A stretch of 53,032 nucleotides of DNA from Thermoplasmatota archaeon (GTDB lineage: Archaea > Thermoplasmatota > Penumbrarchaeia > Penumbrarchaeales > Penumbrarchaeaceae): positions 1-53,032 of the forward strand of contig JAFGLL010000089.1 in assembly GCA_016928095.1 (NCBI GenBank), in the 5' to 3' direction. Of this stretch, positions 4,833-41,154 are shown piece by piece. The notes beneath the pieces are model-generated. The model was not told where the DNA came from and did not search any database. It saw nothing but the letters and a program-made list of their open reading frames with translations. Positions within the stretch are counted from its first letter, which is position 1, and each line of letters opens with the position of its first letter. Made by a program: the position numbers and the translations under genes.

Positions 4833-7800
4833 CTATTCGAAAACTGCTCCGCAATGAGGGCAGATCGGTGCCGAGACCGGTATCAAGGCCCCGCATTCAA
4901 AGCATTCTGCAAGGTCTCCACTGTCTTCGGGTGGTTCCCTGGAAGGTTCTGGCACCTCCTCGACCTCCTCCAGCTCCTCGGGTTCCTGATCCGGTCTTTC
5001 CTCTTCGACCTCTTCCCCGCCCTCCAAATCCTCTTTTTCTTCATCATCAACATCTTGGAGGACCTGAGGGGGACCGCCCGCGACCGGTCTACCGCAGGAG
5101 GGACATTCCGTCGCATCTGCCGGTATCACTTCACCGCATTCGCATTCCATTTCATCGCTGAATTCGATACCGCAATGCGGACAAACCGTATCATCGATAT
5201 GGACGAGTCCTCCGCAGTTCGAACATTTTGCCATGTCCTTTGTTCTACTCTTCATGTAAAGGTAGTAACCAGCCACAGCAAGCAGAATGAGGATAAGGAT
5301 GATGATCACCAGGACCACGATCCACATCATGCTTGGTTTTTCAGGCTCCAGAACATTAATGACGCTCGAGGCCTCGTTGTTATTGTAATCCTTTTCATAG
5401 AAACGATCGTCATCGTTCACCTTGCACTTCCAGACAGCTATCTGTCCGGCACCGATATCCGGTTTTATGGTGAAGGTTACGGTCCTTTCCTGATAGGGTG
5501 CGAGATCGATCAGTCTCTGGGGGGCATCGGTCGGGCCGTTATACTCTACAAGCAACCCCTCCAGAGAATGGTTTCCAAGGTTCCGAACAATGAACGAGAT
5601 ATCATACTCCTTACCCTTGGTCATGTCGAACTGCCCGGTCTCGATATTGTAGGGTCCACCCTCTCTTAAAACTGAGACCGTGACATCCGGAGCTTCCACT
5701 ACATCCAGGGTCAGGACGATAATATTGTTACCCTCATCGAATTCCCTGATATTATTGGCCGGGTCCACTATGATCCGCAGTGTATTGATCCCTGTGTCCC
5801 TAAGGTTCCAGAACCCTGTGATGATATCTGTACCGTTGTTCTCGATGAACATGATGATGTTACTGCATTCGACCCTGGTATCAGTCGCATTCGAGGACAT
5901 GAACACCACTGATGTATTACTGGCGGCTTTTCCACCGATGTTCGAGATCGAAAGCTCCAAGGACAGGTTCATTCCCTGATAAGCTACCGGATGGGTCTGT
6001 GGATCGATGGTGATCCCGGGGTAACCAGTACTGAAGGTGAGGGTGTCGTTAAGCGGAAGAAGCTCCGGCACATCATCGATATCGAAGATCTCTATTGGTA
6101 CCGTTATCATATTGTTATTGACCTTCTGCTCGACCCCTTCCAGAAGCTGTGTCCTGACCAATATTGTCCTTACACCTTTTGGATATCCCACTCTCCATGG
6201 CATCTCTATGAACATACTGGACCTGCCTTCGAGAGTTCCCGAGAGATATACAACATCAGATCCCAACGGGAGCGGGTTGGGATCGTTCTCGAACTCCACA
6301 TTGAAGAAGTTCACCTTGAAAGAGGGAGCTGGCATATCGCCCTTGTTCTCGAGGGTGGCATTGATGACCAGGGTCTTTCCGACACCCGCTGAATCGACCT
6401 CAAAATCCCCCTGGAAAAGGGAAAGGTTGGTGAATGTGAGATCGGGAAGGGTCTGGACATATACAGGCCAGTAAACCTTGTTGTTCATCTCATCTGATTC
6501 GTCTATGGCATTGGCGAGGTCCAGTACAACATAGATATTGTGGTAACCTCCCGTCTGCGGTTTCCAGGTGACATTCACCCCTTTCATCCCTCCTGCGGGG
6601 ATCAGACCGATCGAGACCGAGGGTTGGGTCTCTTTCCATGAGATTATCTTGCCTCCTGCAGCGGGGTCGCCATCATAGAACCTGATGAAGACGTTATGGG
6701 CGTCTGTCTCTCCAGAATTCCGTATGGCAGTTGTAATTCCTACATCCTTTCCGATCTCGATCTTCTCATTGGTCTCCACCCTGAAATCATCATTTTCCAT
6801 GTAGAGGTCCGGTTTGGAGATCACCATGAAGTCGAACGATCGAAGGTTATTGGTCTCTACGGGTTCCTTGATAGCATCCCAGTAGTCCGCCACGATGAAA
6901 AGGGTATGAAGGCCCAGACCTTCCGCCTTCCAACCGAAGGAGATGTTCATCTCCTGCCCCGGGGAGAGGTCGATGGACCTGGTTTCAATAACATTTGTAT
7001 CCGAGTCCAAGGAGAAATGGATCATGGCATTCACTGCTTTTGTCCTGCCGACGTTCTTCAGTGTTGCCCAGAAAGTGACGTTCTTTCCCTCTGTCACGAC
7101 CTTCGGACTTGCACCCACCTTGTTGGTGAAGGTAAGGTCCGGTGGTGTATCCACCAAGACCGGGATGATCGCTTCGTTGTTCGTTTCGTTCTGTTCCAAT
7201 ACCGAATCCAGGGGATCTATGACGATGATTATGTCATGATACCCTATAGGCAGTCCTGCGTTCCATGAGAAGGATATCTCACTTGCCGTCTCGGGTAGAA
7301 GGCCATATATCAGGGCTTCGTCACCTATCTGGTTTTCGGGCTCTTTCACCATATCGTACAGTCGTACCATGAAGTCCCCTGCTGGAAGCTCACCCACATT
7401 CTCGACCTGGACCTCGAGGGTCACGGTGGTATTGACGGTGACAGGTACGGGAGCATCGACCCTGAAGGAGTTCAGTACCATCTTCAGGTCAGGAAGGGTT
7501 AAAACGTCCAGAACCATCGTGTCGTAGGAATTGATCGGGGTTCTGTCGAATTTGGAGAATATCTCGACCCTGATGGTTACGAGACCGGCGATATCCGGTG
7601 TCCATTCGACCACCCTTATGACATGGCTTCCAGGTTCTATGTAATCGATATGCAGATATTCAGCAATAATGCCCCTGGAAAATCCGGACACCCATGTGAC
7701 ATTAACATAGAAACCGTTCTCCTCGGGGTCCGACTCACCGATATTGGAAACCGTCAGGTCCAACTCACCAACCATTCCATAAGCCCAAACACCGGGACCA

Positions 7801-10475
7801 ACTTCAAGGTCGATGGTGTAATCCGGTCCGATACCTATGAAGTTCATTTGATCGTATTTGTTATCGTCCTCTTTGGTTTCCTTTACATCGTCCATCGCAT
7901 CAACGGTCAAAGATATATCCGCCTCACCTTCGCTGGTCATCCATTCCACGGATACTTCCGTGAATTCCCCGGCAGCTAGACCCGGAACGGAACTCTCACC
8001 AACAAGGAAACCGTTGACCTCCATTCTGGCGATGAACGGACCGGCATCGAACTCACCTACATTGCTGATATTACCTATCAGAACTACCGGAAAACCACTT
8101 ATGAGGGTGCCATTCACGGAAAGGTTCCCCGGTACCAGGTTAGGGCCGCCGGGAATGGTGATTATTGCATCAACATCAGAGCCTGAGATCAATGTGGTCA
8201 TTGGATCAGAAGTATAACTCCTGTAAGATGCAGATAGCAGGTAATTTCCGAGGAATGTCCTTCCTGTCGTTCTGAGCTCTTCCTGTGCAAGCGGGAACTC
8301 TGAGAGTCCATATTCGTTCGTATCATGGGTTGAGACATCGATCAGAACTGAACCGCTCACCCTCTGGACCTTGATCTTCGAACCAGAAATGGGGTTACCG
8401 ACCGAATCCTGGGCCATCGCGTTTACCCACCAGGCCCTGGCAATGACACCAGAGTCTACCGGTTTAAGCCAATTGGTCCTCCCCTGAGGCAGTGATCCAG
8501 AGAACGAGACATTGGTCAACATTGCATAATTGTCTATGTCCAGCGGGACATTGTACACAGAGTCATATGAATGAAGCGTAACACCTGAGAGGTGGATGTT
8601 CCCGACCTGGACCGGGTCACCATCCAGCTGGAGCATGCAGTTCTCGGCAAATATCCTGTCCGCGTTCACAGACCCTGCAGTGACCTTCACATCGACATTG
8701 GGACCGATCAGATTGAGCGAGCCGTTGAAATAACTACCCTCGATGTACGCCAAAGCTCCATTCCTGGCAATAAGATGCCCGATATCCATTTTGCCTCCAT
8801 CCAAGGTCAAGGTCGGGTTCCCGGTCCCCATGAGATATACATATAGATCATCGAAGCCCATGCTCATAAGGGTGACATTCTCCAATTCCAGGATGCCGCC
8901 ATTCTGCACCAGGATGTAGGCCGGTGACCCGTCTGTCATAAAAGCAACTATGGTGTTAGTGATCTTCAGATGGCCTCCGGATCCTACAATAAGATGTCCG
9001 TCGAAGGCGTAAAAGGAGGGATAGAAAACACCGTCTATCACGGAAGATGTTCCTCTGATGCTGGTCTGTCCGCTCACTGTCAGGTCCACTCCGAGGTCCG
9101 AAAAGAAAGACGAACCGGAGGGGTTAATAACATACTTTCTGAATTCCATAGGACCGGAGAGGAGCGAGATCGCCTCTTCGCTGACGGCCGACCCGTCCAT
9201 GGCCTTCTGGAAGATGTCCTTCTGCTCCCCCATATCGGGGAGTTCAGGATAGCTCTTGAACCTTGTGGACGCCTGGACGGTCTCCCCGTCTAAGGTCACT
9301 GTCACCAGGAAGTCCGGATAGGAATCTGCGTTTGGCATAGTAACGCTTGTGAAAACGTCGGTGATCACTGGAATGAAAGCCCATCCCACAGGTGATGTGT
9401 AGCTCCATTCACTGGCCTGTCTATCCATGTAAGCGAGGATCTCGTTCGTAAGATATGAGCTTACGAGCCTTGTATTTGTACCCCCCTCCACCCTGTAGAC
9501 CGTAACCTCCGTATCCTCCACAGGGATATCCATACCATCCATCAAATGAGCTCCTATCCATCGATAATAGACAACTCGAGATGAGGAATCCAACACATAG
9601 AATGCTGGATGTTCCGCTTTGGCGGAAGCAGATACGTTCACACTAACACCGACCAGATGAGCCACCCCTCCGTTCTCGACTTTGAGCATATTATGAGAAC
9701 CAGTGGATAGACTGGATTCGAAATCTATATCCAGGTAGGAATTGATAACGGTCAAGTTCGATCCCGAACCACCTACGGTTACATTACCCGCAGTGATACC
9801 GTCCCTTGAAGCGGTCTTGAATGAAAGGGTATCCCTCAGTTCAGAATCAACAATGAGAGCGATCGAACCTGACAAGAAGGAGAACAATGGCCCGTCATCG
9901 TTGAGGTCCAGATCGTCCTGTGTGCTTCCATCACCATCTATATCATAAGCTAGCAAGCTCTTATCCTGAAGTTCGTAGAACTCCGATCTTTCGGAGGTCA
10001 GTCTTGCCTGATCGGTCAGTATAATAGTGCCTGGCCCCTCCACCGCCGAATCCCTGAAGCTTATCTGGGACCCGGAACCATCCACCGAAATATCGATCTT
10101 GAAATAGGGGTGTAGCTGCCCAGTCTGTGTCGTGAGCAGAGTGTTCACGAATTCAAGCCGTCCACCGCTTTCGACCTTTATGGAATAAATGTGATCGTCG
10201 CCTCCTCCGATCTCACCATCCAGTCCAACATCCTGGGAAAGCGTTATGGTCGAGTTGGAGAACGTTAATACACTACCGGACCCGGTAACGAGAATATCCC
10301 CGTCGAGCAGGTAGTTTACTTTGTCATAACTCCTTTTACTTCCCCCCGAAACAGTTATCGAACCAATACTTGCAGCATTCACCCTTTGATCATCAGCTGC
10401 CAGTAAGAGCCCGAAAGAAGCTGCGATCAGAAGGGTGATCATGGCTATTGCGGGCATGACCGTTCGTATCTTCAT
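4833..10475 (-). CDS. Giant secreted CARDB-repeat membrane protein with cytoplasmic zinc-ribbon tail
   Basis: About 1880 residues. A signal peptide (M-K-I-R-T-V, then a long hydrophobic stretch) leads into about 750 residues of Ser/Gly/Asn-rich short beta repeats resembling a right-handed beta-helix. About eight CARDB/Ig-like repeats follow, each with an 'N-x-G ... D-x-N-N' pattern (for example ETNNEAIIP, DEGNNIIV). One transmembrane helix (MMWIVVLVIIILILILLAVA, encoded near 5250-5325) precedes a 138-residue tail. The tail has three Cys-x2-Cys pairs of pairs: C-S-N-C...C-P-H-C, C-E-C...C-P-S-C and, after a Glu-rich linker, C-F-E-C...C-P-H-C. The ectodomain is presumably outside and the ribbons inside. 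I chose the ATG at 10475 because AAGGTG lies just before it and a normal signal peptide starts there; the open frame extends to an ATG at 10526. Function unknown: surface adhesion, cell envelope or signalling. Confidence 0.8.
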   Translation of the reverse strand: MKIRTVMPAIAMITLLIAASFGLLLAADDQRVNAASIGSITVSGGSKRSYDKVNYLLDGDILVTGSGSVLTFSNSTITLSQDVGLDGEIGGGDDHIYSIKVESGGRLEFVNTLLTTQTGQLHPYFKIDISVDGSGSQISFRDSAVEGPGTIILTDQARLTSERSEFYELQDKSLLAYDIDGDGSTQDDLDLNDDGPLFSFLSGSIALIVDSELRDTLSFKTASRDGITAGNVTVGGSGSNLTVINSYLDIDFESSLSTGSHNMLKVENGGVAHLVGVSVNVSASAKAEHPAFYVLDSSSRVVYYRWIGAHLMDGMDIPVEDTEVTVYRVEGGTNTRLVSSYLTNEILAYMDRQASEWSYTSPVGWAFIPVITDVFTSVTMPNADSYPDFLVTVTLDGETVQASTRFKSYPELPDMGEQKDIFQKAMDGSAVSEEAISLLSGPMEFRKYVINPSGSSFFSDLGVDLTVSGQTSIRGTSSVIDGVFYPSFYAFDGHLIVGSGGHLKITNTIVAFMTDGSPAYILVQNGGILELENVTLMSMGFDDLYVYLMGTGNPTLTLDGGKMDIGHLIARNGALAYIEGSYFNGSLNLIGPNVDVKVTAGSVNADRIFAENCMLQLDGDPVQVGNIHLSGVTLHSYDSVYNVPLDIDNYAMLTNVSFSGSLPQGRTNWLKPVDSGVIARAWWVNAMAQDSVGNPISGSKIKVQRVSGSVLIDVSTHDTNEYGLSEFPLAQEELRTTGRTFLGNYLLSASYRSYTSDPMTTLISGSDVDAIITIPGGPNLVPGNLSVNGTLISGFPVVLIGNISNVGEFDAGPFIARMEVNGFLVGESSVPGLAAGEFTEVSVEWMTSEGEADISLTVDAMDDVKETKEDDNKYDQMNFIGIGPDYTIDLEVGPGVWAYGMVGELDLTVSNIGESDPEENGFYVNVTWVSGFSRGIIAEYLHIDYIEPGSHVIRVVEWTPDIAGLVTIRVEIFSKFDRTPINSYDTMVLDVLTLPDLKMVLNSFRVDAPVPVTVNTTVTLEVQVENVGELPAGDFMVRLYDMVKEPENQIGDEALIYGLLPETASEISFSWNAGLPIGYHDIIIVIDPLDSVLEQNETNNEAIIPVLVDTPPDLTFTNKVGASPKVVTEGKNVTFWATLKNVGRTKAVNAMIHFSLDSDTNVIETRSIDLSPGQEMNISFGWKAEGLGLHTLFIVADYWDAIKEPVETNNLRSFDFMVISKPDLYMENDDFRVETNEKIEIGKDVGITTAIRNSGETDAHNVFIRFYDGDPAAGGKIISWKETQPSVSIGLIPAGGMKGVNVTWKPQTGGYHNIYVVLDLANAIDESDEMNNKVYWPVYVQTLPDLTFTNLSLFQGDFEVDSAGVGKTLVINATLENKGDMPAPSFKVNFFNVEFENDPNPLPLGSDVVYLSGTLEGRSSMFIEMPWRVGYPKGVRTILVRTQLLEGVEQKVNNNMITVPIEIFDIDDVPELLPLNDTLTFSTGYPGITIDPQTHPVAYQGMNLSLELSISNIGGKAASNTSVVFMSSNATDTRVECSNIIMFIENNGTDIITGFWNLRDTGINTLRIIVDPANNIREFDEGNNIIVLTLDVVEAPDVTVSVLREGGPYNIETGQFDMTKGKEYDISFIVRNLGNHSLEGLLVEYNGPTDAPQRLIDLAPYQERTVTFTIKPDIGAGQIAVWKCKVNDDDRFYEKDYNNNEASSVINVLEPEKPSMMWIVVLVIIILILILLAVAGYYLYMKSRTKDMAKCSNCGGLVHIDDTVCPHCGIEFSDEMECECGEVIPADATECPSCGRPVAGGPPQVLQDVDDEEKEDLEGGEEVEEERPDQEPEELEEVEEVPEPSREPPEDSGDLAECFECGALIPVSAPICPHCGAVFE

Positions 10476-10526
10476 GGCACCTTGCTCCCTCATACGATCC
10501 ACCATCCAATTGAGCACTTTCAACAT

Positions 10527-10827: not shown

Positions 10828-13800
10828 GTGCGTTGGACAAGAAAATTTCTTAGATCGGATAATATTAGCTCCAGGACCATCAACCTACGAGGTCACTTCT
10901 CCCGGGTTGTGATCTGTTGCCTCTTGATCATCCTGTTTCCATGTGGTGTTCATCGGGAGGACTGCATCCATAATATGACAAACGGTTGTTCTTCGACCTT
11001 CGATGGTGATCGAACTACCATTGACATACCTGTTATCAACGAAGTGTATCCGGAACCCTCAACAGACCTGAACGATGACGGTCTCGTCAATACCGAAGAT
11101 GAGTTCATCGAGATATTCAATCCGACAGATGGATATTTTGATCTGGCAAATTGGTCTCTGTCGGACAACCATGATAGTCACACGATCCATGGTTTAACGA
11201 TAGCACCAGGAGGGTTTGCTACATTATGGAGGGTTCGGACCCAACTAATGCTCGGAAGGGATGACAGGGTCGAACTCCGCAACGATACCGGAACCTTGAT
11301 TGACTCCTTCGAATGGTCATCGATCAGAACCGGTCTAACGATCCAGAGAGCACCGGATGGAGGTGGGGTTATCAGGAAGGTCTTCCGTCCCAGTCCCGGT
11401 TCTCGAAATCTCGGTCCACCGCTCGTGAAGATCAACGAGATCATGGTGGACCCTCCGGGAGCCAATCTCGGGAACCAGTGGATCGAGCTTCTTAACATCG
11501 GTGAGGAAGAGAACCTTAAAGGTTTCACATTGACCAATGGAGAAGGGGTTGTGGTCTCCTTCGACGATCTCTGGCTGGGAACGGATGAGAGATTAGTGGT
11601 GTTCCTTGGAAAACCTTCCGATGATATCATAATCCCGTTCGAGGCAAGCAGGATATTCTTCTCCCAGACCTCAGCACTTTTTACTGTCGGGGATGATATT
11701 TCCCTTCTAGATGTTGACGCGGTGGTCGTTGATTATGTCGCATGGGGGGCTTCCAGTCACGTAGGTGAACCGGGTAGAGGATACGAGGTGTCCGAGTGGT
11801 ATGGAAAATTCTGGGATGCATCCAATGGGACCATATCAGAAACCGGTGATAAGAACCCATCATTGGTCACTGGCAGATCTATCATCAGGGTCCCCGACGG
11901 TCATGATACTTCTTCCCCTTTTGATTGGACCGCTACCCCGGGAAACTGCACGGGTTCTATGGGGTGGGACAACGGTTTGGACCCCTCCCTGGAGATACTT
12001 TTCGATGAGGAGGAATTCTGGTTAGAAAGGGGTTCCTCAAAGGAGATAAGCATATGGATACTGGACCGGGGCAATATGGCTGGGGAGCTCAATGTCTCGC
12101 TGACCTACGAAGCACCGAACTGGACGATAGAAGACCACGTTACCGGAGGGACATGGATCGGACCAAATGAACCAGTCGAATGTGGTTTCATGGCAAGATC
12201 TCCCAACCAATTGGGCGAGGACAGGAGGGTCACGGTCGGACTATCGGTAGCTTGGGAACAACTTGAACCGTTATCGTTCAAGGATCAGGTCGAGCTTGTG
12301 ATCCCGGCCCCCGATGTGAAGTTCGGGGGTGCAAAACTGGAGTATCAAGATAAGGTTGTGACAGGAGATGTGCCATCCGGAGCGGAGCTTCTTCTTGAAG
12401 GTAATGTCCTGGGGGGCGGGGAGCTGGATCCGGGGACTATCAAACTGTCCATCGAGGTCTTTGAGAATAATGACGTTGAAAATAGGACAGTGGTGCATGA
12501 GGAGGTGGTCTTCAAGGACATGACCACCACGTCAAAAAGGGAATTCGAGGTAACCGTTGACACCCTTGGGCTGGAGGGCTCGTACCGATTGCTGCTCATA
12601 CTTGACAAGGAGGGCCTTATCGAGGAGATAGATGAGGACAATAACCTCTGGACGACCACCTTCGATGCCGTACCCTCTCTCATACCACTGGGTCAGACAG
12701 GATTGATGATCACCAGGGTTCTCTGGAACTGCACCTACGAAGAGAGGTTCATGCAAATTGAGAATCCCACAAAAGGAGATGTGGATATCTCCGGCGTCCG
12801 GATCTCGGATGGGATATCACATTCCAGTTTTCCAAAAGGTGTCGTCCTTCGACCTGGGAATGCCGCTGCTGTAATATGGGGACAGGCTGCGCGTGATAGA
12901 TTGGATCCAGATATAATGATCTTCAATATCTCAGGAGGATCAACGGCAAGCAGAATGGTCTCATCCCTTCAGGTTCCCGACCCATTCGAAACTGGAAGAC
13001 TTCTGCTCAGGACCGAATTCAGGACGGACATCGACATGGTACTTCTAAGAGGTATTGCCACAGATGCCCACGGCTGGACCCATGGGGATGCCGTTGAGAC
13101 AACATGGGGAACGGTGCTATATCGGGTCAGGTCGACAGCCGATACGCTGATCGATACGAACACATCGATGGACTGGACCGTGGATAGGGGTGGCGGGTTC
13201 CTCCTGGAGTTCCTCCTTGATCCTGATGTGTCAGGCCCCGGTGAGTATATAGTGATCTCTGGTGAGTGCTCGGACCGGGACCTATCCGGCATGATGATCA
13301 TGTGCTCTGGACGTGCTGCGGTCATACCCAATGGGACCGTGATAACGGGAGATGATGTTCTGATCATAGCGAAGGACCCTGAGGCTTACGAACAGACATA
13401 CAGAAGGCTACCTGATCTGTCCTTCGGCGACTCAACGGTATTGGATGGTCGGAGGATCGATGGATGCAAGGTCCCGATGTATCCTGAGCTGATAATGCCC
13501 AACACTGAAGGGAACCTGGTTCTGATCGACAGGGAGAACAAGGTCCTGGACACCATAAGATGGGGGAATGGTGAGGGAAAAATCGGGAAACCCTCTAAAG
13601 ATGTTATCATGGGGAGATATCTGCTTTCGAACGGGACTTCCCAAGGCTGGATGGCGGTCGGGTTGGGTTCCGACCCCCTATCCTGCGTATCCATCCCGAA
13701 AATAAACGCTTCAGGGGTATTCTTTCAGGGTCCCCTCGAGAACGGTCTCGAATGGTTGCTGGAGGTCGACGATGACCTCTTCCTGATCACATCCACCCTG

Positions 13801-16800
13801 GATGATGAAGGGGTCCTCGGCATTCTGGGAGACCATCTTTCAAAAGGCTTTGGTCTCCAGATCGTTCTGACCTGTGAACCCTGGTCACCCCTGGGTGAGG
13901 TCGATGAGCTGTTCCACCCGGTGTCGACCAGGGCGGGTTATGCCAAATATCTCCTCAAGAAAGGGGCAGACATTCATACCCTGGACGTTGGAAGGGTTGC
14001 CGGGACATCAATGATCATTTGCGGTGATCGGATCTTGTTCGTATCGGGACCTCTTGTAACGGGACAGGACGGCAAGGATGCAGGCATACCATGCTATTTC
14101 GGAACAGAGCTTGGACCTCTCTGCCATGGAACGGTTCAGGAGATCATGGACCGATACATGAGAGTATCCAGCAACGATCTTGCCGGATTATCGCTGATAG
14201 AACCGACCGAACCTTCACAACGATCCATAGGTCTCGAACCCTCGGACCGACCGGTGATGACGCAGAGCGGGCATCTGAGCATTGGACCCCTCCTGGACAC
14301 CCATATCCCGATGGATACTGGCAAGGTGCTCATACATCACTCGGAGGGACCACTGGATATTACGTATATCCTGGAATTGGCCAATTCCGGAACGGAGATC
14401 AAGCTGATACTCGGTCCCAAATGCCTTGAAGTTCTGGGTCCGGGTTCCAATGGGGGTGTGTCGAATGCATCCTCCCGGATGATCGCATCAGACCATTTCC
14501 TCTCACCGAGCGAACTTTCAGAAGACCTGCTCATGAGAGCTGCGGGATTGGTCAAAGCCTCGGAGGAGATGGGGCTCCCGGTGGTGGTGAAGATAGGTGA
14601 TATGGATTCTGGCAGATACTTTCAGGGGTCCATGATGATCACTGATAAAGAGGCGAGAACGACCCTCCCTTGCTACGATCGTGAAGGAGACCTGCGGTCT
14701 ATGGTACTCACAGGGAATGCCCAGAGCCATTTCCAGGATCTGTTCATGGCGGAATGGGAGAGGGCCAACCCGTTCCCATGGGGTTTGATCGAAGGGGAGG
14801 ACCAGAATATCGGAAGCTGTCCTTCCATAAGGATAGAAGAGGTCTACTATGATACTTATATTGCCAATGACCCGGATGAATATGTATGCCTTATGAACAC
14901 TGGACCGTATCCGATGAATCTATCGGGTCTCATGATCAGCGATGATGAAGGGCTTGGTATCACTTCGGACGGCATCCTGATCCTCGGAAATGTCATACTC
15001 GGACCAGGTGATCGTTTGTTCATAACCAAGAACAGCACGGACCTAATCTCACAGAACGGTTATCTGCCACATATCTCCTGGGGTTCAACGGAGTGGCTGT
15101 GTGCACTTCCCTGCAGTGGCATGCTAAAGCTGGCAAACGGCAACGATTCGGTCATGCTCCGGGATAAGAGAGGATATATCATCGATTCTGTCAGTTGGGG
15201 AACAGCATTCATTCCTGATGGAGTGTGGACCACTTATGAGATGGGAGAATGGATGGGGCCGCCGTGTCCGGATATCAGTTGGGGGACGGTCCTGTTCCGG
15301 GTCAGGGAAACTGATACGAACACCAGGGAGGATTGGATGTCCATCAGGCCAAGATACCCAGGACAGTCAAGGATGGACCTGTTCGATCAAGGAGAGTACA
15401 GGGACATGACGGTCGGAGTATGCCCTGACTCCAGTTCCGAGGTTCTCTGCCGGGCCCTCGATGAAGCAGATAGTAACATCCTTGTGAATGTCTACGAACT
15501 TACATCGGAATGGATCACCTCCAGACTGGTAGGTGTCCATCAAAGAGGAGTGGATGTCAAGTTACTCCTTGAGGGGAACCCTGTGGGAGGTCTGAGCTAC
15601 AGCGAGGAGAAATGCATCTCGAGATTAGTATCGGCAGGGATACAGGTGAGGAAGATGGTCACGAATACTCAACTGGGGATCCGCGACAGATATCGCTATG
15701 ATCATGCCAAATACCTCGTGATGGACAATGAGTTAGTAGTGATAAGCACCGATAACTTCAAGGAAACCTCCTTCCCCCCTCCTGGAAGTCCTCATGGTTC
15801 CGGAACCAGGGGATGGATCGTGAACCTCCACTCAAAGGACATGGCCAGAGATCTTACAGAAGTGTTCATGGATGACTGGGAGGGACCCGATATCGAGGTG
15901 TGCGGGGTCCTTTTCGAGACCGATGACCTTTTGATCGCACCCTCTATGTCCACTGGCTCATACCCGATCTACAGACAATGGTTCGACCCTTTATATACTG
16001 ACCATGGAGGTAATGGATCTATCCTGATCACCCCTGACCATTTATGTCTTGAGATGAACCCTCTTCTTGATCTGATAAAGCGATCGGAAAGTGAGATCAT
16101 CCTGGAGCTGATGGACATTGAGATGGAATATCTCCTTTACAATTCCGGCATGGATACTATACCATTCACATACGCCTCCGACCGAGAGAAGTATGGCGTG
16201 AACATAATGAACCCGTATCTGGAGGAATTGATCCACGCTGCCGCCCGGGGTGTCAATGTGATCCTGCTCCTTGATGGTTCGGATTTCAATGGTGACCTTG
16301 TCCCGGACTGTCTGGAAAAGATAGAGCAGATCACTGATGTCCTGAAAAAAATGGGTGTCGAAGATCATTTCCTTATCCGGATGCACCCTTCCCCGCGTTA
16401 CTGTATGGAGGGAGAGATATACATGGTCCATAACAAGGGGATGATAGTCGATCGCCAATGGGTCTGGGTTTCATCCTTCAACTGGGGGCCCACATCAGGA
16501 CTTGAGAACAGAGAGGTCGGTGTTCTCTTCGGATCGCAAGATGCAGCAAAATACCTCAGGGAGGTACTTCTATTCGACATCGGAGGTTCTCTACAATCCC
16601 AGGTGGATGTTCGGAAGGTGTGGTCCTTTGGTGATCTCAAAGGGGACAGGATATCCTCCCTCGAGGTTGGTCTGGAGGTCGCATGGAGAGGGGAGGGGGA
16701 GATAACCATCGAACTTCAAAGCATTGAATTGTCAACGGGAGATACAAGCTCGCTCCAGACCGTGCACCTGGACCAGGGCTTCATAGGGGTGATCGTCCTC

Positions 16801-17040
16801 GAAGCGCTCGATGTGGACATTGATAGAGAGGTCGGGTTCATCATTAGGGTTACCGGAGAAGGAATGGGCTTTGATGCATGTATCTTCGAAATATCCGAAC
16901 CCATTGAGGGAAATCAATGGTCAGAACCCGGGATCCTTTCCATGCAATGGGTTCCCATTTCCATGGTATTGTTCCTTTCTCTCTCCATATCAATGATAAG
17001 AGCTATCGCCACCAGACGCAAATGGGAGAGTGAAGAATGA
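10828..17040 (+). CDS. Giant exported lamin-tail / phospholipase-D domain protein
   Basis: This 2070-residue protein starts at a GTG. A basic N-terminus and hydrophobic stretch (VVICCLLIILFPCGV) form a signal. About five lamin-tail-like beta domains follow (segments such as INEVYPEP, E-F-I-E-I-F-N-P, INEIMVDPPG, WIELLN), plus a CARDB-like repeat near residues 495-620. There are then two phospholipase-D modules. In the first (about 960-1310) the HxK sites are degenerate. The second has intact H-x-K-x4-D motifs at His1626/Lys1628/Asp1633 (HAKYLVMD) and His1868/Lys1870/Asp1875 (HNKGMIVD). A C-terminal membrane helix and short basic tail anchor it. Two intact HKD motifs imply phosphodiester hydrolysis outside the cell, on lipid or nucleic acid; lamin-tail domains accompany secreted nucleases and PLD enzymes in prokaryotes. 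Substrate not determinable. The pcn gene follows closely on the same strand. Confidence 0.82.
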   Translation: MRWTRKFLRSDNISSRTINLRGHFSRVVICCLLIILFPCGVHREDCIHNMTNGCSSTFDGDRTTIDIPVINEVYPEPSTDLNDDGLVNTEDEFIEIFNPTDGYFDLANWSLSDNHDSHTIHGLTIAPGGFATLWRVRTQLMLGRDDRVELRNDTGTLIDSFEWSSIRTGLTIQRAPDGGGVIRKVFRPSPGSRNLGPPLVKINEIMVDPPGANLGNQWIELLNIGEEENLKGFTLTNGEGVVVSFDDLWLGTDERLVVFLGKPSDDIIIPFEASRIFFSQTSALFTVGDDISLLDVDAVVVDYVAWGASSHVGEPGRGYEVSEWYGKFWDASNGTISETGDKNPSLVTGRSIIRVPDGHDTSSPFDWTATPGNCTGSMGWDNGLDPSLEILFDEEEFWLERGSSKEISIWILDRGNMAGELNVSLTYEAPNWTIEDHVTGGTWIGPNEPVECGFMARSPNQLGEDRRVTVGLSVAWEQLEPLSFKDQVELVIPAPDVKFGGAKLEYQDKVVTGDVPSGAELLLEGNVLGGGELDPGTIKLSIEVFENNDVENRTVVHEEVVFKDMTTTSKREFEVTVDTLGLEGSYRLLLILDKEGLIEEIDEDNNLWTTTFDAVPSLIPLGQTGLMITRVLWNCTYEERFMQIENPTKGDVDISGVRISDGISHSSFPKGVVLRPGNAAAVIWGQAARDRLDPDIMIFNISGGSTASRMVSSLQVPDPFETGRLLLRTEFRTDIDMVLLRGIATDAHGWTHGDAVETTWGTVLYRVRSTADTLIDTNTSMDWTVDRGGGFLLEFLLDPDVSGPGEYIVISGECSDRDLSGMMIMCSGRAAVIPNGTVITGDDVLIIAKDPEAYEQTYRRLPDLSFGDSTVLDGRRIDGCKVPMYPELIMPNTEGNLVLIDRENKVLDTIRWGNGEGKIGKPSKDVIMGRYLLSNGTSQGWMAVGLGSDPLSCVSIPKINASGVFFQGPLENGLEWLLEVDDDLFLITSTLDDEGVLGILGDHLSKGFGLQIVLTCEPWSPLGEVDELFHPVSTRAGYAKYLLKKGADIHTLDVGRVAGTSMIICGDRILFVSGPLVTGQDGKDAGIPCYFGTELGPLCHGTVQEIMDRYMRVSSNDLAGLSLIEPTEPSQRSIGLEPSDRPVMTQSGHLSIGPLLDTHIPMDTGKVLIHHSEGPLDITYILELANSGTEIKLILGPKCLEVLGPGSNGGVSNASSRMIASDHFLSPSELSEDLLMRAAGLVKASEEMGLPVVVKIGDMDSGRYFQGSMMITDKEARTTLPCYDREGDLRSMVLTGNAQSHFQDLFMAEWERANPFPWGLIEGEDQNIGSCPSIRIEEVYYDTYIANDPDEYVCLMNTGPYPMNLSGLMISDDEGLGITSDGILILGNVILGPGDRLFITKNSTDLISQNGYLPHISWGSTEWLCALPCSGMLKLANGNDSVMLRDKRGYIIDSVSWGTAFIPDGVWTTYEMGEWMGPPCPDISWGTVLFRVRETDTNTREDWMSIRPRYPGQSRMDLFDQGEYRDMTVGVCPDSSSEVLCRALDEADSNILVNVYELTSEWITSRLVGVHQRGVDVKLLLEGNPVGGLSYSEEKCISRLVSAGIQVRKMVTNTQLGIRDRYRYDHAKYLVMDNELVVISTDNFKETSFPPPGSPHGSGTRGWIVNLHSKDMARDLTEVFMDDWEGPDIEVCGVLFETDDLLIAPSMSTGSYPIYRQWFDPLYTDHGGNGSILITPDHLCLEMNPLLDLIKRSESEIILELMDIEMEYLLYNSGMDTIPFTYASDREKYGVNIMNPYLEELIHAAARGVNVILLLDGSDFNGDLVPDCLEKIEQITDVLKKMGVEDHFLIRMHPSPRYCMEGEIYMVHNKGMIVDRQWVWVSSFNWGPTSGLENREVGVLFGSQDAAKYLREVLLFDIGGSLQSQVDVRKVWSFGDLKGDRISSLEVGLEVAWRGEGEITIELQSIELSTGDTSSLQTVHLDQGFIGVIVLEALDVDIDREVGFIIRVTGEGMGFDACIFEISEPIEGNQWSEPGILSMQWVPISMVLFLSLSISMIRAIATRRKWESEE

Positions 17041-17134
17041 TGCCAGGTGATTCATGGATGTCTTTAGGCAAACTTTATTATTGCCCTCCTTGATTAGGGC
17101 AGTGGAACGCGATATCGGCCAGCTGGGGATGGAT

Positions 17135-17872
17135 ATGTTCGAGATAGACATTAAAGTGGAAACATTGAGAAGCGTGTTTTCGATACTCACACCTATCGTC
17201 GGTGAGATCAAGCTGAAGGCCGATGAGGAGGGTTGGAAGATCAAAGCGGTCGACCCGGCCCATGTGGCCCTGGTCGATCTGACCCTTTCCAGAGAAGCCT
17301 TCGATAGATATGATGTCGAACCGATGGAACTGGGCCTCAACGTTGAGAGGCTTCTTGAACACCTCAAGGGAGGAAGAGCGGATGAGATCGTGATGATGAA
17401 GTTGGACACCGACAACAGACTTGTCGTTTCCATGTCCAATCTCACTCTGAAGCTGCCCCTGGTGGATGCTTCCGGATTCTCCGATCCCAAGGTACCGAAC
17501 CTACAACTGCCAGTAGGATTGAAGTTGAATTCCGGTGAGCTTCAGAAAGCCCTCAAGGTCTCCGCTTCGATTTCTGATTACATTACCTTCGACTGTTCGG
17601 AGGATAGGATAATCATGACCTCCTCCGAGGACCTCTCCTCGATGACCCTTGAACTTGCCAAGGGTGAGCAATACGAGACCGTTGCTTTCGAGAAACCTGC
17701 CAAGAGCTCGTTCTCCCTTGATTACTTCAGCCAGTTGATGAAGGGTATTGGGGCCAACAGGGACATAGTACTGAACATCGGTAACAGCTATCCCATGAAG
17801 ATCGAGTTCGACTTCTCGGAGGACCAGGGACACGCAAGGTACCTTCTTGCGCCAAGGATAGAAAGCACCTGA
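17135..17872 (+). CDS. pcn: DNA sliding clamp PCNA
   Basis: The 245-residue product begins MFEIDIKVETLRSVF and has the two-domain clamp layout. LKADEEGWKIKAVDPAHVALVDLTL is the first-domain hallmark, an interdomain region follows near residue 120, and the C-terminus ends in YLLAPRIES. It forms a trimeric ring that tethers DNA polymerase, ligase, FEN1 and other partners. The open frame extends upstream to an ATG at 17054, but I chose 17135 because it gives the family's normal length and N-terminus and is preceded by a G-rich GGGGAT. A TATA-like TTTATTATT sits near 17072-17080. The clamp is the only replication-fork gene here apart from RPA at 30-32 kb. Confidence 0.93.
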   Translation: MFEIDIKVETLRSVFSILTPIVGEIKLKADEEGWKIKAVDPAHVALVDLTLSREAFDRYDVEPMELGLNVERLLEHLKGGRADEIVMMKLDTDNRLVVSMSNLTLKLPLVDASGFSDPKVPNLQLPVGLKLNSGELQKALKVSASISDYITFDCSEDRIIMTSSEDLSSMTLELAKGEQYETVAFEKPAKSSFSLDYFSQLMKGIGANRDIVLNIGNSYPMKIEFDFSEDQGHARYLLAPRIEST

Positions 17873-18321: not shown

Positions 18322-21300
18322 CTACTTAAGGTCTTGCCGGACATCCTCTGTGGGCAATTCTCGGGGTACTAGGGGGTTCGGACCTTCATCCTGTTCCGGA
18401 CCAGCTATCGTGTTCCTCGCCGCTGATCCGCTCTTTGACCTTCTTACAAGCACCAGACCCGTTGCCGTGAGTGCAACTATGACCAATATCCCGATGGGAA
18501 CGATGATCCACATAGCTTTCTTACCACCACTCTCAATGGGCTCGCCGGACCCTCCCGTCTCCAGATGGACATTGAAGCTCCTTACACCTTCAAGAGGATC
18601 TCCCGTCAACGAGGTCCCATCAAGGGTAACAGTATACTCTCCCCCCTTCAAACCATCGATCAAGAACAAGACCGTCCTGTTTTCGACAGAGGTCGAGTTG
18701 AAAGATTGGATGCCTGCTGTCCCGTCCGAAAGTACGAGATACATTTCGGGTGATGCCGGGACGGATAGCTCGAACGTTATCTCCATCGGTTCTCCATGGA
18801 CCGAAAGATGGGACATCAAGATGCGATCTATACCTAGCCCGTTGACCTTGATGATCTCGAATGCTGGTCTCACCACGAACCTGAACTCCTGGACCCGTGA
18901 AGGCTCCCCCGTGATGTCCTTCAATGCTTCTGATATCCTCAATATGTAGACCTTTCCATGGTCCAGAGGGAGTTTTGGGGTGATCAGCAGCGTCCTTGGG
19001 TCCATGGATAAAATGGAGATATCCCTCTCCATGCCAGATGAATAAAGGAAGATACCCGGATCGATGGTTTCGGTCTCGATAGGTTCGTTGAATGTCAGCC
19101 TGAAGACCGTTCCCGGAGCTATCTCCTGAACGTCAGGATGTGGAAAGACCTCCAGAACAGAGGGAGGAACACCATCTGTTACAACGGTTAAAAGTAGTTC
19201 ATCCAGTTGAATATTGCCGGATGGGTCGGTGACCTTCAGCAGTATCCGGTGCTCCCCGAGTTCCGATGCAATGAAAGTGATGTTCATCCCGAACAGGATC
19301 CTATCCGAGCCCTTGAAGACCCAGGTGAAGTTAGCCCCGTTGGGGAAGTCCGGATCGTTATCCGAAGAAAGAGAGGCTGACAAGTTGACAGGGGTCCCTC
19401 TGATCACTGTCTGATCATCACCCGCTACCGCTTGAGGGACCGTAATATCCATGACCGTGAGGTGGAAGGGGACGGATATCGAATTACCGCCCGTATCGGT
19501 CAAGGAAAGGACAACGGAGTATCTTCCAGGAGTGATCACCATCAGCTCCACCTCCAAACCCTCCAATGTCAGTTCATCCGGTCCGGAGAATTGCCAAAGG
19601 AACAGACCGACCTCTTCTATAAGGGGGTCGTTGTCTATCACTCCCTGGGCCTTGAGCTCAAAAAGTGTGTCTTCCTGGACATAGAGGTCGTCTGGTCGTT
19701 CCAGAGAGGGTGTCTGATCGTCCAGGACGGATATCTGTTCGTATGCTTGATCCGAATTACCTGCCGCATCCAGAACCGTCAGCAAGATGGATAGAGGCCC
19801 GGGTCTGGATAGATGTAAACTTGGACCTGGCCCATAGAGGAACATTTTCTGACCCCAGAATGAGAGTGCCCATGTATAATTGACCACACCTGAAAGCCTT
19901 GAGACCGGTCCGATATCGTAGGAACCTGACCCATCCAGCAGGAAACCGGTGGAGGTCACTGCATCGACCTGGGTGATGTTAGCCACCGGGTCATCCGGAT
20001 CGTACACGACGTAAAGGGGATAGGGAAACACTGTCGGCCCGTTCCCGTACATATCATATCCTCTTACTTGGAATTCATTGACGCCTGGGGAAAGCTCGAG
20101 ATATGCCCCGAACCTGCCTTCGTTGTCCACTGATATGTTGCGTATCGTTTGGTCGCCCATTAGGATGACAACGACGGACAGGGGTTCGGCCTCCCCGAAC
20201 AGATGATATAGAGAGATATTCTGGGAGACCTCGGTTCCCGAAAATACATCAAGTATCGGGGGAGGACTGTTATCGATGCTGTACCTTGCAAGGGGGAGAG
20301 TTGTGTTGCTGTTGTTCGCTTCATCAACGGCAACCGCTCTCAGAATGAACCATTCTCCCTCCTTTATATCCTCAGGTCGGGTCTCCGTATCCCAGATCAG
20401 GCCATCGGAGGGGGTCGTGTCGCTTTCAAGATCGGACCATGGACCATCGGGTATCATGTCCTCATTCCAGTCCCGGGCTATCTCGAACTGGACCCAAACA
20501 GTGTCATTCTCCGCTGAATAATCAAGAAGGACCTCCCGAGAGATCACATTACCATTGACAGGTCCGTTCAATACGAACCAAGGAGGTTGCGTATCACAGG
20601 GTACACCACTCACCTGATCCGTGGGTTCGGAGTTGTATCCAAGCAGATTGAAAGAGGATACCCTGTAATAATACGATTTACCGTCAACAAGGCCATTATC
20701 AGTGTAATATGTCCGGTTGTCCGGGGTGGAATGAACATTTGAGAACGATCCCGGGATATCGCTACCAGGCAGGTCCTCGACCGCCCTCCAGATGGTATAT
20801 GACATCAGATTTGTGTCATCTGGACTTTCCCATTCCAGCCTGAGCGAGTTACCGGATGGCAGAACAGATATCGAGAGGTTTGCGGGTCTTCGGGGCAAAT
20901 TCGTATCGATACGAACCGGATGTGTGGAATATCCGGTTGTAGGATGAAGATAGAGCTTATGGATATAACCTCTGATCGAGAAATTCCCCTTGATCAGATT
21001 TGGCACGGTAAAGTACCCGGAATAGTTACCATCAGATGCAACAGTATCCGGTGCTATCCCATCATCCCTTGCCTGGATGTTGGACCTACCGTTCAATCCT
21101 ACGACGTCATACCAGGATGTGAACCCCGGGGTTCCCGATATGGTCACGGTCACCGTGTCCATATATGTCAATGTCCTTCCGATGGTATCATGTGTTACGT
21201 TCAGTATGTAAGGTGGAATGAGGGCCTTTGTCCTGGCCATGACCGTCCTCTTTGGATAAGCCTCTTCATATGAGGCCGTTATTTGTTCATCACCTGAGAC

Positions 21301-23658
21301 AGAGACCTCACCTTCCAATGGTGTTCCGGTCACTACCTTTACGGACCCCTCGAATATACCAAGACCTCTACTTCCATCGACCATCTCGGAAAGATCGATG
21401 AGCTCTCCGGAGGGGTCTGTCGTCGTGTTCACCTTGACCTGCACCCATCCGCCCCCTGTCAGATTGGAATCGGAGAGGAGAAGATGAGCGATGGAACCGT
21501 TCGCCGGTATATGTTCCTCCTCCCATTGGATCCAGCCCACCGCGTCGGATATGTTACCTGTAAGAACGAATGCATAAGGCTGAGTCCCTGTGATGACCGA
21601 ATACCCGGTAACGTTCACAGTATAGATGCCGGCCTGGGGGGCCGGTATCACGATCCGTTCCACATTGTTCACAGAGTCCCTTGTATCATTGTAAGGGGAC
21701 TGGAGATCGTTTCCATTGAAATTCCTCCCGTCCGGAGTTGTGACCTTCAGGTCGAGGTCGTTGACAAGCTTCGTTGAACTCGTGTTCGATCCGGGATGAT
21801 CGCTCCATACCAGAGTGATGACAAGATCGCTGTCGCCGTTCGCAACCGTGAAAAGTCTTGTATGGGATGCCCCGGTCGTCAAACCCGTCGAGTTATCCAC
21901 ATATTTCATTCTCCCTGCATCGCTGTCCACCGTTCCCAATGAATTTGAAAGGTTCACTCTCCCCCAACCCTCTCTGCTGTTCGGGACGGATGACCATTTG
22001 TCATCCAACGGACGGGCGCCGTTGATCACCGCTGCCTTTATCAGCGCCGCGGACGGGGAGTGGCCCTCGACTTCAGAAAAATACTGGGCGATCAATGCTG
22101 CCATTCCCGCCACGATAGGGGTCGACATCGATGTCCCACCGTTGTATGCATAATTCGAGTTCACTCCCTGGTATGTCGAGTTGCTGCCCCAGTAATGGTT
22201 CCAGAAATCCGTAATGAGCGAGGATCTTGTTGATAGGATCCAGGTCCCGGGAGCCACAACATCCGGTTTTATCCTGCCGTCACCCCAGGTAGGTCCCAAA
22301 GATGAGAACGATGCCATCTCCGATATGTTATTGGCCGTCGAACTTATAGTTGGCCGGTAGCTCTCGGAAGCTCCGACAGCGATGACGTTCTTCGATACTG
22401 CCTGTGTCGAAATGGAATAAGGTCCGTCCGAACCCTGGTTCCCTGCGGAGAAAAGGACCAGAAGGTCCTTGTTCCCCCATATGAAATTGTCGGTCTGCCA
22501 TGACCTCCAGGTGTAATTACCGTAGGATCCTCTAGTGGACCATGAATTGGTCTGTATCCTGGCGCCGGACCTGTATGCATCGGAGAATAGAGTATTGTAT
22601 GCCGGGATGGAAAGGGAACCCGTGGAGTTCATTGTGGACTGCATTACAAGGCCAGCGGACGGTGCCATCCCCCGGTATTGCCCGGATGATAAGGTACCGT
22701 TCCCCAGGACCGATCCCGTAACGTGTGTTCCGTGCCCCCCCTTTTAATCCCATGAGCTGGTAGAAGGGTTCCATACATGTATGTCCGCATCGGACCAGTT
22801 CCCGGGCCTTCCATAGGTGTATACCCTTTCGATCCTGCCCTGGAAGTCACCATGCAGCGTGCTGTTCTGTCCTGTATCCAATCCCGTATCAACGACAGAT
22901 ATGATCAAGCCCGTTCCGTCAAGTGATAATGTGTTCTGGACCTCCATGACATCGATGATATCGGCCGATACATCATTGTCGGGGCCTTCTTCCCACCCTA
23001 AAGAGACATGGGATACTCCCTCGATCCTTGAGAGGTCCATCACATCTCCTAGCCTGAAGGTCCCGGAAACGGTCCCGTCCATGGGTTGATAGGTCGATCC
23101 GCCGATACAAAGGTCGTCGAGGGTTCTCAACAGGTCTTCATCGGGAGGTGTGTACAGACCAAGGATCAGTGGTGAGGTCCCTTCACCATCCATTGCGGAT
23201 ACCCTATGGAACAGACCACCTTCCACCTTGAACAATGGATGGTAAGGGACGACAGCCCTTGCATAGGGTCCTATCGAGAGCAGAAAATGACCCAAATCGA
23301 TTTGGGGTTGAACCACAATGGAGGATGATGAGACGATATCTATCAGATCAAAGGTGTCCCCATTGCGACCCATTATCTCCACCATGGATGATGGAACAAT
23401 CGCCTGGACAAGAAGAGGACCGCCTGATGTTCTTCCCGGAAGGTTCCATATCGCTTCGGCATCCAGTTTTGGGTCGAACCTGAAAGCTCCAAGATGGACA
23501 ATATATCGGGGATCACCTTCAAAATGGGGAAATTCCAAAGACCACCACTCCAATTTTAGGTCCTGGGAAGGGAGGGAGGCCTTCCCCAATACTCCAGACA
23601 AGGTGAGGCAGGATAAGAGGAACAGCAATGAGAGCGTCACCACCTTTCTGAAATGCAT
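18322..23658 (-). pseudogene. Giant subtilisin-like serine protease interrupted by an in-frame UAA
   Basis: Two open segments in the same frame are separated by one TAA at 22746-22744. The upstream part (start ATG 23658, signal MHFRKVVTLSLLFLLS) ends ...STSSWD just after the catalytic Asp in S-V-V-D-T-G-L-D (codon at 22890). After the stop the frame resumes at once with K-G-G-H-G-T-H-V-T-G (catalytic His at 22734). It continues through SAGNQGS (oxyanion Asn) and GGTSMSTPIVAG (catalytic Ser at 22131). Then come a P/PPC-like beta domain, an FN3 domain, several Ig/PKD-like domains, a Big_5-like domain and a C-terminal membrane helix. The intact reading would be about 1780 residues: an exported, membrane-anchored protease. 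Nothing else is decayed, so the stop is recent, read through, or a sequencing error. Called pseudogene provisionally. Confidence 0.72.
22744..22746 (-). other. In-frame UAA codon within the subtilase catalytic domain
   Basis: The minus strand reads TGG GAT TAA AAG GGG GGG CAC: Trp-Asp-stop-Lys-Gly-Gly-His. The frame is identical on both sides, so a single base substitution (for example in GAA, AAA or CAA) explains it; a single indel does not. The adjacent A4-G7 run is an error-prone homopolymer, but an error there would shift the frame. TAA is an ordinary stop here, for example in folP. Confidence 0.8.
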
Positions 23659-23752: not shown

Positions 23753-24217
23753 TTATATCAGGGGTCCGCAGGCCTTTTCCGAATCCCCGTGATGCTCGTC
23801 CCCCTCATCATCCCTGGGTTTGAGGTCCGTCCTGTTGATACCTTTCTTCCTGTAATATTCATATAAAGCGGCCTTCAAGGCCTCAACGGCCAGCAGAGAG
23901 CAATGTACCTTGACGGGAGGGAGTCCTTCCAGACCTTTCACGACATCTGCCCATTTGATATTTTCTGCATCCTTCAGGTCCATCCCCTTCACGAGCTCGG
24001 TAAGCATCGAGGTCGTGGCTATTGCAGATGCACAGCCAAAGGTCCTGAACTTGATATCCTCTATCTTGTCCCCCTCTACCTTGATGGATAGCTCCATCAT
24101 ATCGCCGCAGACCGGATTACCGACAGTACCAATGGCATCGGCATCCTCCATCTCCCCAACGTTCCTGGGATTCTTGAAATGTTCCAGCACCTTCTTGGTA
24201 TATTCCAGTCTCGTCAT
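23753..24217 (-). CDS. iscU: Fe-S cluster scaffold protein IscU
   Basis: This 154-residue protein carries the three scaffold cysteines: Cys37 in NPVCGD (with the neighbouring Asp39), Cys62 in FGCASA and Cys106 in VHCS. It receives sulfur and iron, assembles a [2Fe-2S] cluster and passes it on. The last ~30 residues form a charged, His/Cys-containing tail (DEGDEHHGDSEKACG) not needed by the family. It lies 8 nt after iscS on the same strand, so the two are co-transcribed. That IscS lacks its PLP lysine, so the sulfur source for this scaffold is an open question. Confidence 0.93.
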   Translation of the reverse strand: MTRLEYTKKVLEHFKNPRNVGEMEDADAIGTVGNPVCGDMMELSIKVEGDKIEDIKFRTFGCASAIATTSMLTELVKGMDLKDAENIKWADVVKGLEGLPPVKVHCSLLAVEALKAALYEYYRKKGINRTDLKPRDDEGDEHHGDSEKACGPLI

Positions 24218-24225
24218 CGGATCAC

Positions 24226-25383
24226 CTATGGGTTGTAGAGAGGGGACATATCCCTCAACTGCTCAACGATTTCAGGCATTATCGATATCACATATTTTGC
24301 ATCTTCCATTGTATTGTCAGGGTTCATTGTGAACTGGAGGCTCCCATGGGCCTCTTCATGTCTCAATCCCATGGAAAGTAGTGTCCTGGAAGGCTCAAGG
24401 TTCTTCTGGGTGCAGGCCGATCCGGAACTGACCGAGATACCGTTCATATCCAGTAAAAGTAGCATCGATTCACCCTCTACGTAGTCGAACCTGATGTTCG
24501 CGTTGTTCGGCAGTCTGCTCTTTGGATGTCCGTTCAAATGGCTGTCGGGTATACCTAGGAGCCCTTTTATTAGATGGTCCCTGATGGAACATAATCTCGG
24601 CGAGTATATTGACATGTTCTGTTTGACATATTCAGCTGCGGCTCCAAATCCAACTATCCCGGGTATGTTCTCGGATCCGCTCCTGAGGCCCCTCTCGTGA
24701 CCTCCGCCTTTGATCAGCCCGGATATCCCTGTTCCCTTCCTTACGAAGAGTGCACCTACACCCTTTGGACCCATCAGATCGACGGAGGAAAGGGTCACAA
24801 GGTCTGCATCCAACTCCTTGACATCGAACGGTATCTGGAAGGCTGACGTCGTCAGATCGATATGAAAGAGTGCCCCATGCTCCTTGACCAGTTCCAGGAC
24901 CTCTCCCAGGGGTTGCAGTGTGCCGACCTCGTGGCTGGCGAAAGGGATGGATACCATGTACACATCTTCCCCGATCGTCCTCTCTGCCTCTTCCATGGAA
25001 ATTCTTCCCGATCCATCAAGCTCAAGAACACTCCTTCTGAGCCCTGAATTCTCTATAGCGGCCGATGTGGCCCTCACGGATTGATGATCTGCCTGCGAGA
25101 TAACTATACGGTCCTTACCGGGACCTCTGAAAGGTATCGGCCCCCGCAATGCAAGATTGATAGATTCCGTTGCACCGGATGTGAATATAATCTCGGATGG
25201 GTCCGAGCCAATAAGGGAAGCAACCCTCTCACGGGCGACCTCCATCGCACGTCTAGGCTTCTTCCCCAGCTCGTGAATGGAGGAAGGATTCCCGTAGTGC
25301 TCGGTGAAGAATGGCAGCATCTCCTCCACCACCTCTCTCCTTGTCGGCATGGCCGAGTTGGAATCAAGATAGATCCTTTTCAA
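24226..25383 (-). CDS. iscS: IscS-like protein lacking the PLP lysine (probably not an active desulfurase)
   Basis: The 385 residues align throughout with class V cysteine desulfurases: YLDSNSAMP near the start, GNPSSIHELG (31-40), FTSGATESINLALRG (67-81), the PLP-stacking His100, Asp176, and the catalytic-loop Cys324 in SSGSAC. The Schiff-base site, normally S-A-H-K-x-x-G-P-K-G, reads SSVDLMGPKG (199-208), so the essential His-Lys is Val201-Asp202. Two further cofactor contacts also differ (N-N-E to S-H-E at 150-152; the Gln of the D-x-x-Q motif to Thr179). PLP is therefore probably not bound and cysteine not desulfurated. From memory, Archaeoglobus fulgidus IscS has the same Lys-to-Asp change and was studied with IscU as a cluster-ligand partner. 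A TATA box at 25429-25437 gives iscS-iscU its own promoter. Confidence 0.88.
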   Translation of the reverse strand: MKRIYLDSNSAMPTRREVVEEMLPFFTEHYGNPSSIHELGKKPRRAMEVARERVASLIGSDPSEIIFTSGATESINLALRGPIPFRGPGKDRIVISQADHQSVRATSAAIENSGLRRSVLELDGSGRISMEEAERTIGEDVYMVSIPFASHEVGTLQPLGEVLELVKEHGALFHIDLTTSAFQIPFDVKELDADLVTLSSVDLMGPKGVGALFVRKGTGISGLIKGGGHERGLRSGSENIPGIVGFGAAAEYVKQNMSIYSPRLCSIRDHLIKGLLGIPDSHLNGHPKSRLPNNANIRFDYVEGESMLLLLDMNGISVSSGSACTQKNLEPSRTLLSMGLRHEEAHGSLQFTMNPDNTMEDAKYVISIMPEIVEQLRDMSPLYNP

Positions 25384-41044: not shown

Positions 41045-41154
41045 TCCCGGCTCCCGGATTTGAACCGGGGATCTAGGGATATCGGCGGGGTGCCGGAGAA
41101 AACTCCGGTTTCCAACTACAGTCCCCCGCTCTAGCCAGACTAAGCCAAGCCGGG
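41045..41154 (-). tRNA. tRNA-Tyr (anticodon GUA) with a 35-nt intron
   Basis: The minus strand gives acceptor CCCGGCT / AGCCGGG, D stem GCTT / GAGC, anticodon stem GGGGA / TCCCT, loop C-T-G-T-A-G-A with anticodon GTA, variable loop AGATC, and T arm CCCGG-TTCAAAT-CCGGG. The discriminator is A73. C1-G72 is the archaeal/eukaryal tyrosine identity pair, supporting Tyr. Two C of CCA are encoded, but not the A. Exon 1 is 41154-41116 and exon 2 is 41080-41045. A TATA box lies upstream and five T follow the 3' end (41042-41038). Confidence 0.95.
41081..41115 (-). other. tRNA-Tyr intron at the canonical 37/38 position
   Basis: The 35 nt between G37 and A38 must be removed to restore a 7-nt anticodon loop and a 5-bp stem. 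The intron contains a perfect hairpin, CCGGAG-TTTT-CTCCGG. A bulge-helix-bulge for the splicing endonuclease can be drawn only with one mismatch in the central helix (C32-G, U33 opposite C, G34-C, U35-G), so the motif would be a relaxed form. Confidence 0.88.

Follow-up and report, generated by a model that had tools for sequence, protein, structure and literature searches.

The subtilase locus and its in-frame stop

The window, by which we mean the whole stretch of 53,032 nucleotides that was analysed (contig JAFGLL010000089.1, assembly GCA_016928095.1), comes from a Thermoplasmatota archaeon whose genome is a Thermoplasmata metagenome-assembled draft of 2.8 Mb in 124 contigs, 96% complete. 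On the minus strand, it carries the frame of a giant secreted S8 subtilase, which runs for 1778 codons from ATG 23658 to a TAG at 18322-18324 and is interrupted once, by a TAA at codon 305. The minus strand around this stop reads AGC TCA TGG GAT TAA AAG GGG GGG CAC GGA ACA CAC GTT, with the TAA adjoining a 7-base homopolymer (G7). The frame is open for 304 codons before the TAA and for 1473 codons after it, and neither a second stop nor a frameshift was found, leaving the TAA as the sole lesion in a gene of 5.3 kb. The stop falls between the catalytic Asp and His, and the S8 catalytic triad is thus not covered by one uninterrupted frame. The preliminary description of the stop, the codon counts and the intact motifs was accurate in every number that we checked.

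Table 1 Features of the subtilase locus in the window.
Feature	Position	Strand	Source
Giant secreted S8 subtilase frame, 1778 codons, one interruption; Peptidase_S8, PPC, fn3, PKD, Big_5 domains	18322..23658	-	
In-frame TAA, codon 305	22744..22746	-	
Open frame ahead of the stop (304 codons), with no more than pro-region and catalytic-Asp motif; hydrophobic, signal-peptide-like N-terminus (by eye)	22747..23658	-	
ORF after the stop, taken from the first start codon it offers (ATG 22668); N-terminus, catalytic Asp and His missing	18322..22668	-	
Peptidase_S8 domain, stop inside	21961..22917	-	Pfam
Catalytic Asp257 codon (VVDTGLD)	22888..22890	-	
Catalytic His309 codon (GGHGTHV), 4 codons past the stop	22732..22734	-	
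Oxyanion-hole Asn407 codon (SAGNQG)	22438..22440	-	
Catalytic Ser510 codon (GGTSMSTP)	22129..22131	-	
NifU-like gene, conserved neighbour	23753..24217	-	
Class V aminotransferase (cysteine desulfurase, NifS-like), conserved neighbour	24226..25383	-	
PCNA gene, convergent conserved neighbour	17054..17872	+	

The protein of a genus-mate (G002) is uninterrupted, and the alignment of the window copy to it (53% identity) runs through both sides of the stop; the two open parts are therefore not a chance pair of ORFs. As translated, the 304-residue N-terminal piece contains the catalytic Asp but no catalytic His, Asn or Ser, and should not be an active protease. Reinitiation at the downstream start codon was considered and rejected, since its product, having no signal peptide and neither Asp nor His, is predicted to be inactive as an exported protease.

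Catalytic domain and the stop-bearing loop

With the stop read as X, the Pfam Peptidase_S8 match spans it, covering residues 248-566 (E = 2.5e-44), and is followed by PPC, fn3, PKD and Big_5 matches, the fn3 match lying just under the Pfam cut-off. The Asp-His-Ser triad and the oxyanion Asn are all present, and their motifs align with those of the orthologues and of 1wmd. The closest solved structures are KP-43 and SubHal (PDB 1wmd and 5fax; E about 1e-84). The match to these S8A subtilases takes in the whole catalytic domain and the beta domain that follows it, with the same catalytic Asp, His, Asn and Ser. However, the bacterial enzymes lack both the stop-bearing loop, about 15 residues in length, and the long C-terminal fn3/PKD/Big_5 region of the archaeal protein. 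The stop-bearing segment is a gap in the alignment to 1wmd and differs in length among the orthologues, and it is probably a surface loop that would tolerate most residues.

The stop site in relatives

For comparison we used 10 genomes of the order, including the source genome, none of the others being of the same species. The neighbourhood of PCNA, subtilase, NifU and NifS is conserved in the genus and the family. The orthologue of the genus-mate G002 is full length and syntenic (53% identity), those of two members of the family (G005 and G007) are syntenic and run to the contig ends, and the copy of G008, a genome of the same order, is a best-scoring homologue on a contig too short to display the neighbours. 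In all four of these relatives, which are the ones with the site intact, the frame is open through the position of the stop, and the stop thus arose on the source lineage alone. The preliminary description had asked for the codon to be compared in relatives; the stop is not shared, and the column holds Phe (G002) or Tyr (G005 and G008), or is deleted (G007). It had also offered GAA as an example of the original codon, which does not agree with the aromatic residue that the relatives have wherever the column exists. Internal stops were likewise absent from the other S8 matches of the source genome, of which there are at least nine, and from the other S8 matches across the 10 genomes.

Two observations on the relatives may be recorded here. 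In an order-level relative that is 54% complete (G009; L074, contig 75, ~570-810), the homologous subtilase is damaged in the catalytic region, where a stretch of about 65-70 bp is repeated and a deletion then removes GHGTHV, with changes of frame. The contig may be misassembled, or the catalytic region may have been hit a second time, independently of the TAA. In addition, contigs of three relatives end inside the subtilase gene (G005, L071; G007, L072; G001, L073), in two of them near residues 816-827; strain variation or repeats may have disrupted the assembly there, or the contigs may merely be short.

A recent nonsense allele or a consensus error

The simplest reading of the stop is a mutation of very recent date or a mistake in the assembly, rather than a concealed regulatory switch. 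To the first of these, namely a nonsense mutation, very recent or confined to some strains, in an otherwise functional KP-43-like secreted subtilase, we assign an even chance. A single-base change would have struck a codon in the length-variable loop, and translation would terminate at codon 305. The TAA allele would then yield no protease, its product being a probably exported N-terminal piece of 304 residues that has neither the catalytic His nor the catalytic Ser and is presumably inert. With at least nine further S8 domains encoded in its genome, the organism may be able to afford such a loss. This account takes the TAA base to be real rather than a consensus error. If the base is confirmed by reads, the gene would offer a snapshot of the loss of a secreted protease in a lineage with many paralogues.

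The other explanation is that the gene truly has a sense codon here, and that the TAA was introduced by sequencing, by assembly or when strains of the metagenome were merged. Its probability, in our judgement, falls a little short of one half; put simply as a real new or strain-level allele against a consensus error, the two are about equally likely. An error would predict nearly everything observed at the subtilase locus. The source is a draft genome of 124 contigs, the change is one isolated event of the substitution type with no other lesion in 5.3 kb, the TAA stands beside the G7 run, and every relative with the site intact is open. Genes with one internal stop occur often in draft genomes, through either recent mutation or base error. 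Among the internal-stop pseudogenes of public assemblies, many are base errors and assembly artefacts, the more so where coverage or quality is low (Cooley and Wright 2024, PMC11017572). The subtilase resembles these spurious or recent pseudogenes in that it comes from a draft assembly and is intact apart from one internal stop, but it differs from them in that the stop is known from one genome.

Two points speak against the consensus error: a well-covered short-read consensus seldom miscalls substitutions, and a screen for split genes turned up no second clear case. The screen was a hexamer-based search for internal stops that have coding signal both before and after them, run over 433 kb (the window and 20 sampled stretches, about 15% of the genome); it covered stops only, and candidates were judged by eye. 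It returned 38 candidates, among which the subtilase TAA was the only clear split gene in the 433 kb. Where the next start codon lay far from the stop, candidates looked, from their translations, like adjacent genes or antisense frames. The lack of a second clear case counts against a generally error-ridden assembly, yet a single split gene could arise under widely differing rates of error or mutation. A random substitution in the subtilase gene is computed to yield a stop about 3.6% of the time, so one case per 433 kb does not discriminate between rates of error and rates of mutation.

Proposed readthrough of the stop

The preliminary description had listed three options, of which the recent nonsense mutation and the sequencing error are those retained above. 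The third, stop-codon readthrough, is not supported, since every relative in which the site is present has a sense codon or none in this column and no recoding element was found. On this third explanation, most ribosomes would stop at codon 305 and a minority would insert an amino acid, giving the full protease, whether the event is programmed or merely tolerated. The open flanks without decay would suit it, as would the position of the stop in a length-variable loop that could probably accommodate many different inserted residues. We nevertheless regard it as highly improbable. The stop is not conserved, the four intact relatives having Phe, Tyr, Tyr and a deletion at its position. No stimulatory RNA element was evident: the 107 nt that begin with the stop fold no better than shuffled sequences (z = -0.5). 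No tRNA with a UUA anticodon was found among the 40 tRNA genes of the 96%-complete genome, three of which had no ARAGORN call (two with introns, whose anticodons were assigned by eye as CAU and GUA, and a fragment close to the end of a contig). The release factor aRF1 is full length, with its NIKS, YRCDSYF (YxCxxxF) and GGQ motifs. A TAA followed by A is not known to be leaky. With stop conservation, RNA element and suppressor tRNA all lacking, programmed readthrough was rejected.

In archaea, stop recoding inserts pyrrolysine at UAG and selenocysteine at UGA, and UAA is recoded in neither case. The subtilase is like these systems in having an in-frame stop in an archaeal gene, but has no conserved stop, element or tRNA to match theirs. 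The archaeal recoding reviewed in PMC5009743 is frameshifting, and a bypass by frameshift or slippage at AAAAGGGGGGG was also rejected, because bases gained or lost in the A4 or G7 run keep the TAA in frame.

A weaker form of the same idea is that near-cognate tRNA reads through the UAA, which is specific to this lineage and lies in a tolerant loop, at a low level; the products would then be mainly the inert N-terminal piece, with small amounts of the full protease. The chance of this appears to us very slim. If reads confirmed the TAA and proteomics also detected the full protein, the locus would be an instance of a cellular gene of an archaeon whose UAA is read through.

One of the intron-bearing tRNA genes missed by ARAGORN as run here lies in the window itself (41045-41154, minus strand), where it matches the Rfam tRNA model; read by eye, its anticodon is GUA (Tyr).

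Constraint on the gene and the use of TAA

An in-frame stop in the catalytic domain might also mark an old pseudogene undergoing decay. In relative-rate tests, amino-acid changes unique to the window copy were counted against those unique to G002. Over the whole alignment, the counts were 63 vs 82 with G005 as outgroup, 69 vs 77 with G007 and 105 vs 138 with G008. Before the stop, they were 33 vs 27, 33 vs 24 and 13 vs 19 with the same outgroups in the same order, none of these differences being significant, and after the stop the window copy was the lower in each case (30 vs 55, 36 vs 53 and 92 vs 119). The tests with three outgroups thus gave no excess of changes that would point to relaxed constraint in the source lineage, and so no measurable decay of the subtilase. 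Base composition by codon position is similar on either side of the stop. The gene was thus functional until very recently, or is so still. Together with all catalytic motifs retained and 5.3 kb free of any further stop or frameshift, these counts leave an old, decaying pseudogene with a minute probability.

Reassignment of TAA to an amino acid in the source organism, for which the open frame itself and nothing further speaks, was rejected as having a negligible chance, as TAA terminates three other genes in the window, aRF1 is intact, the cognate tRNA was not found among the 40 and the other S8 genes of the genome have no in-frame stop.

Other large genes in the window

The window also encodes two further large proteins. 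The first (10828-17040, plus strand; 2070 aa) has four stretches of lamin-tail domain (LTD) and two PLD-like domains and is 60% identical to a protein of the genus-mate; it is possibly a large exported nuclease or phospholipase. The second (4833-10526, minus strand; 1897 aa) contains six stretches of CARDB, with zinc ribbons at its C-terminus.
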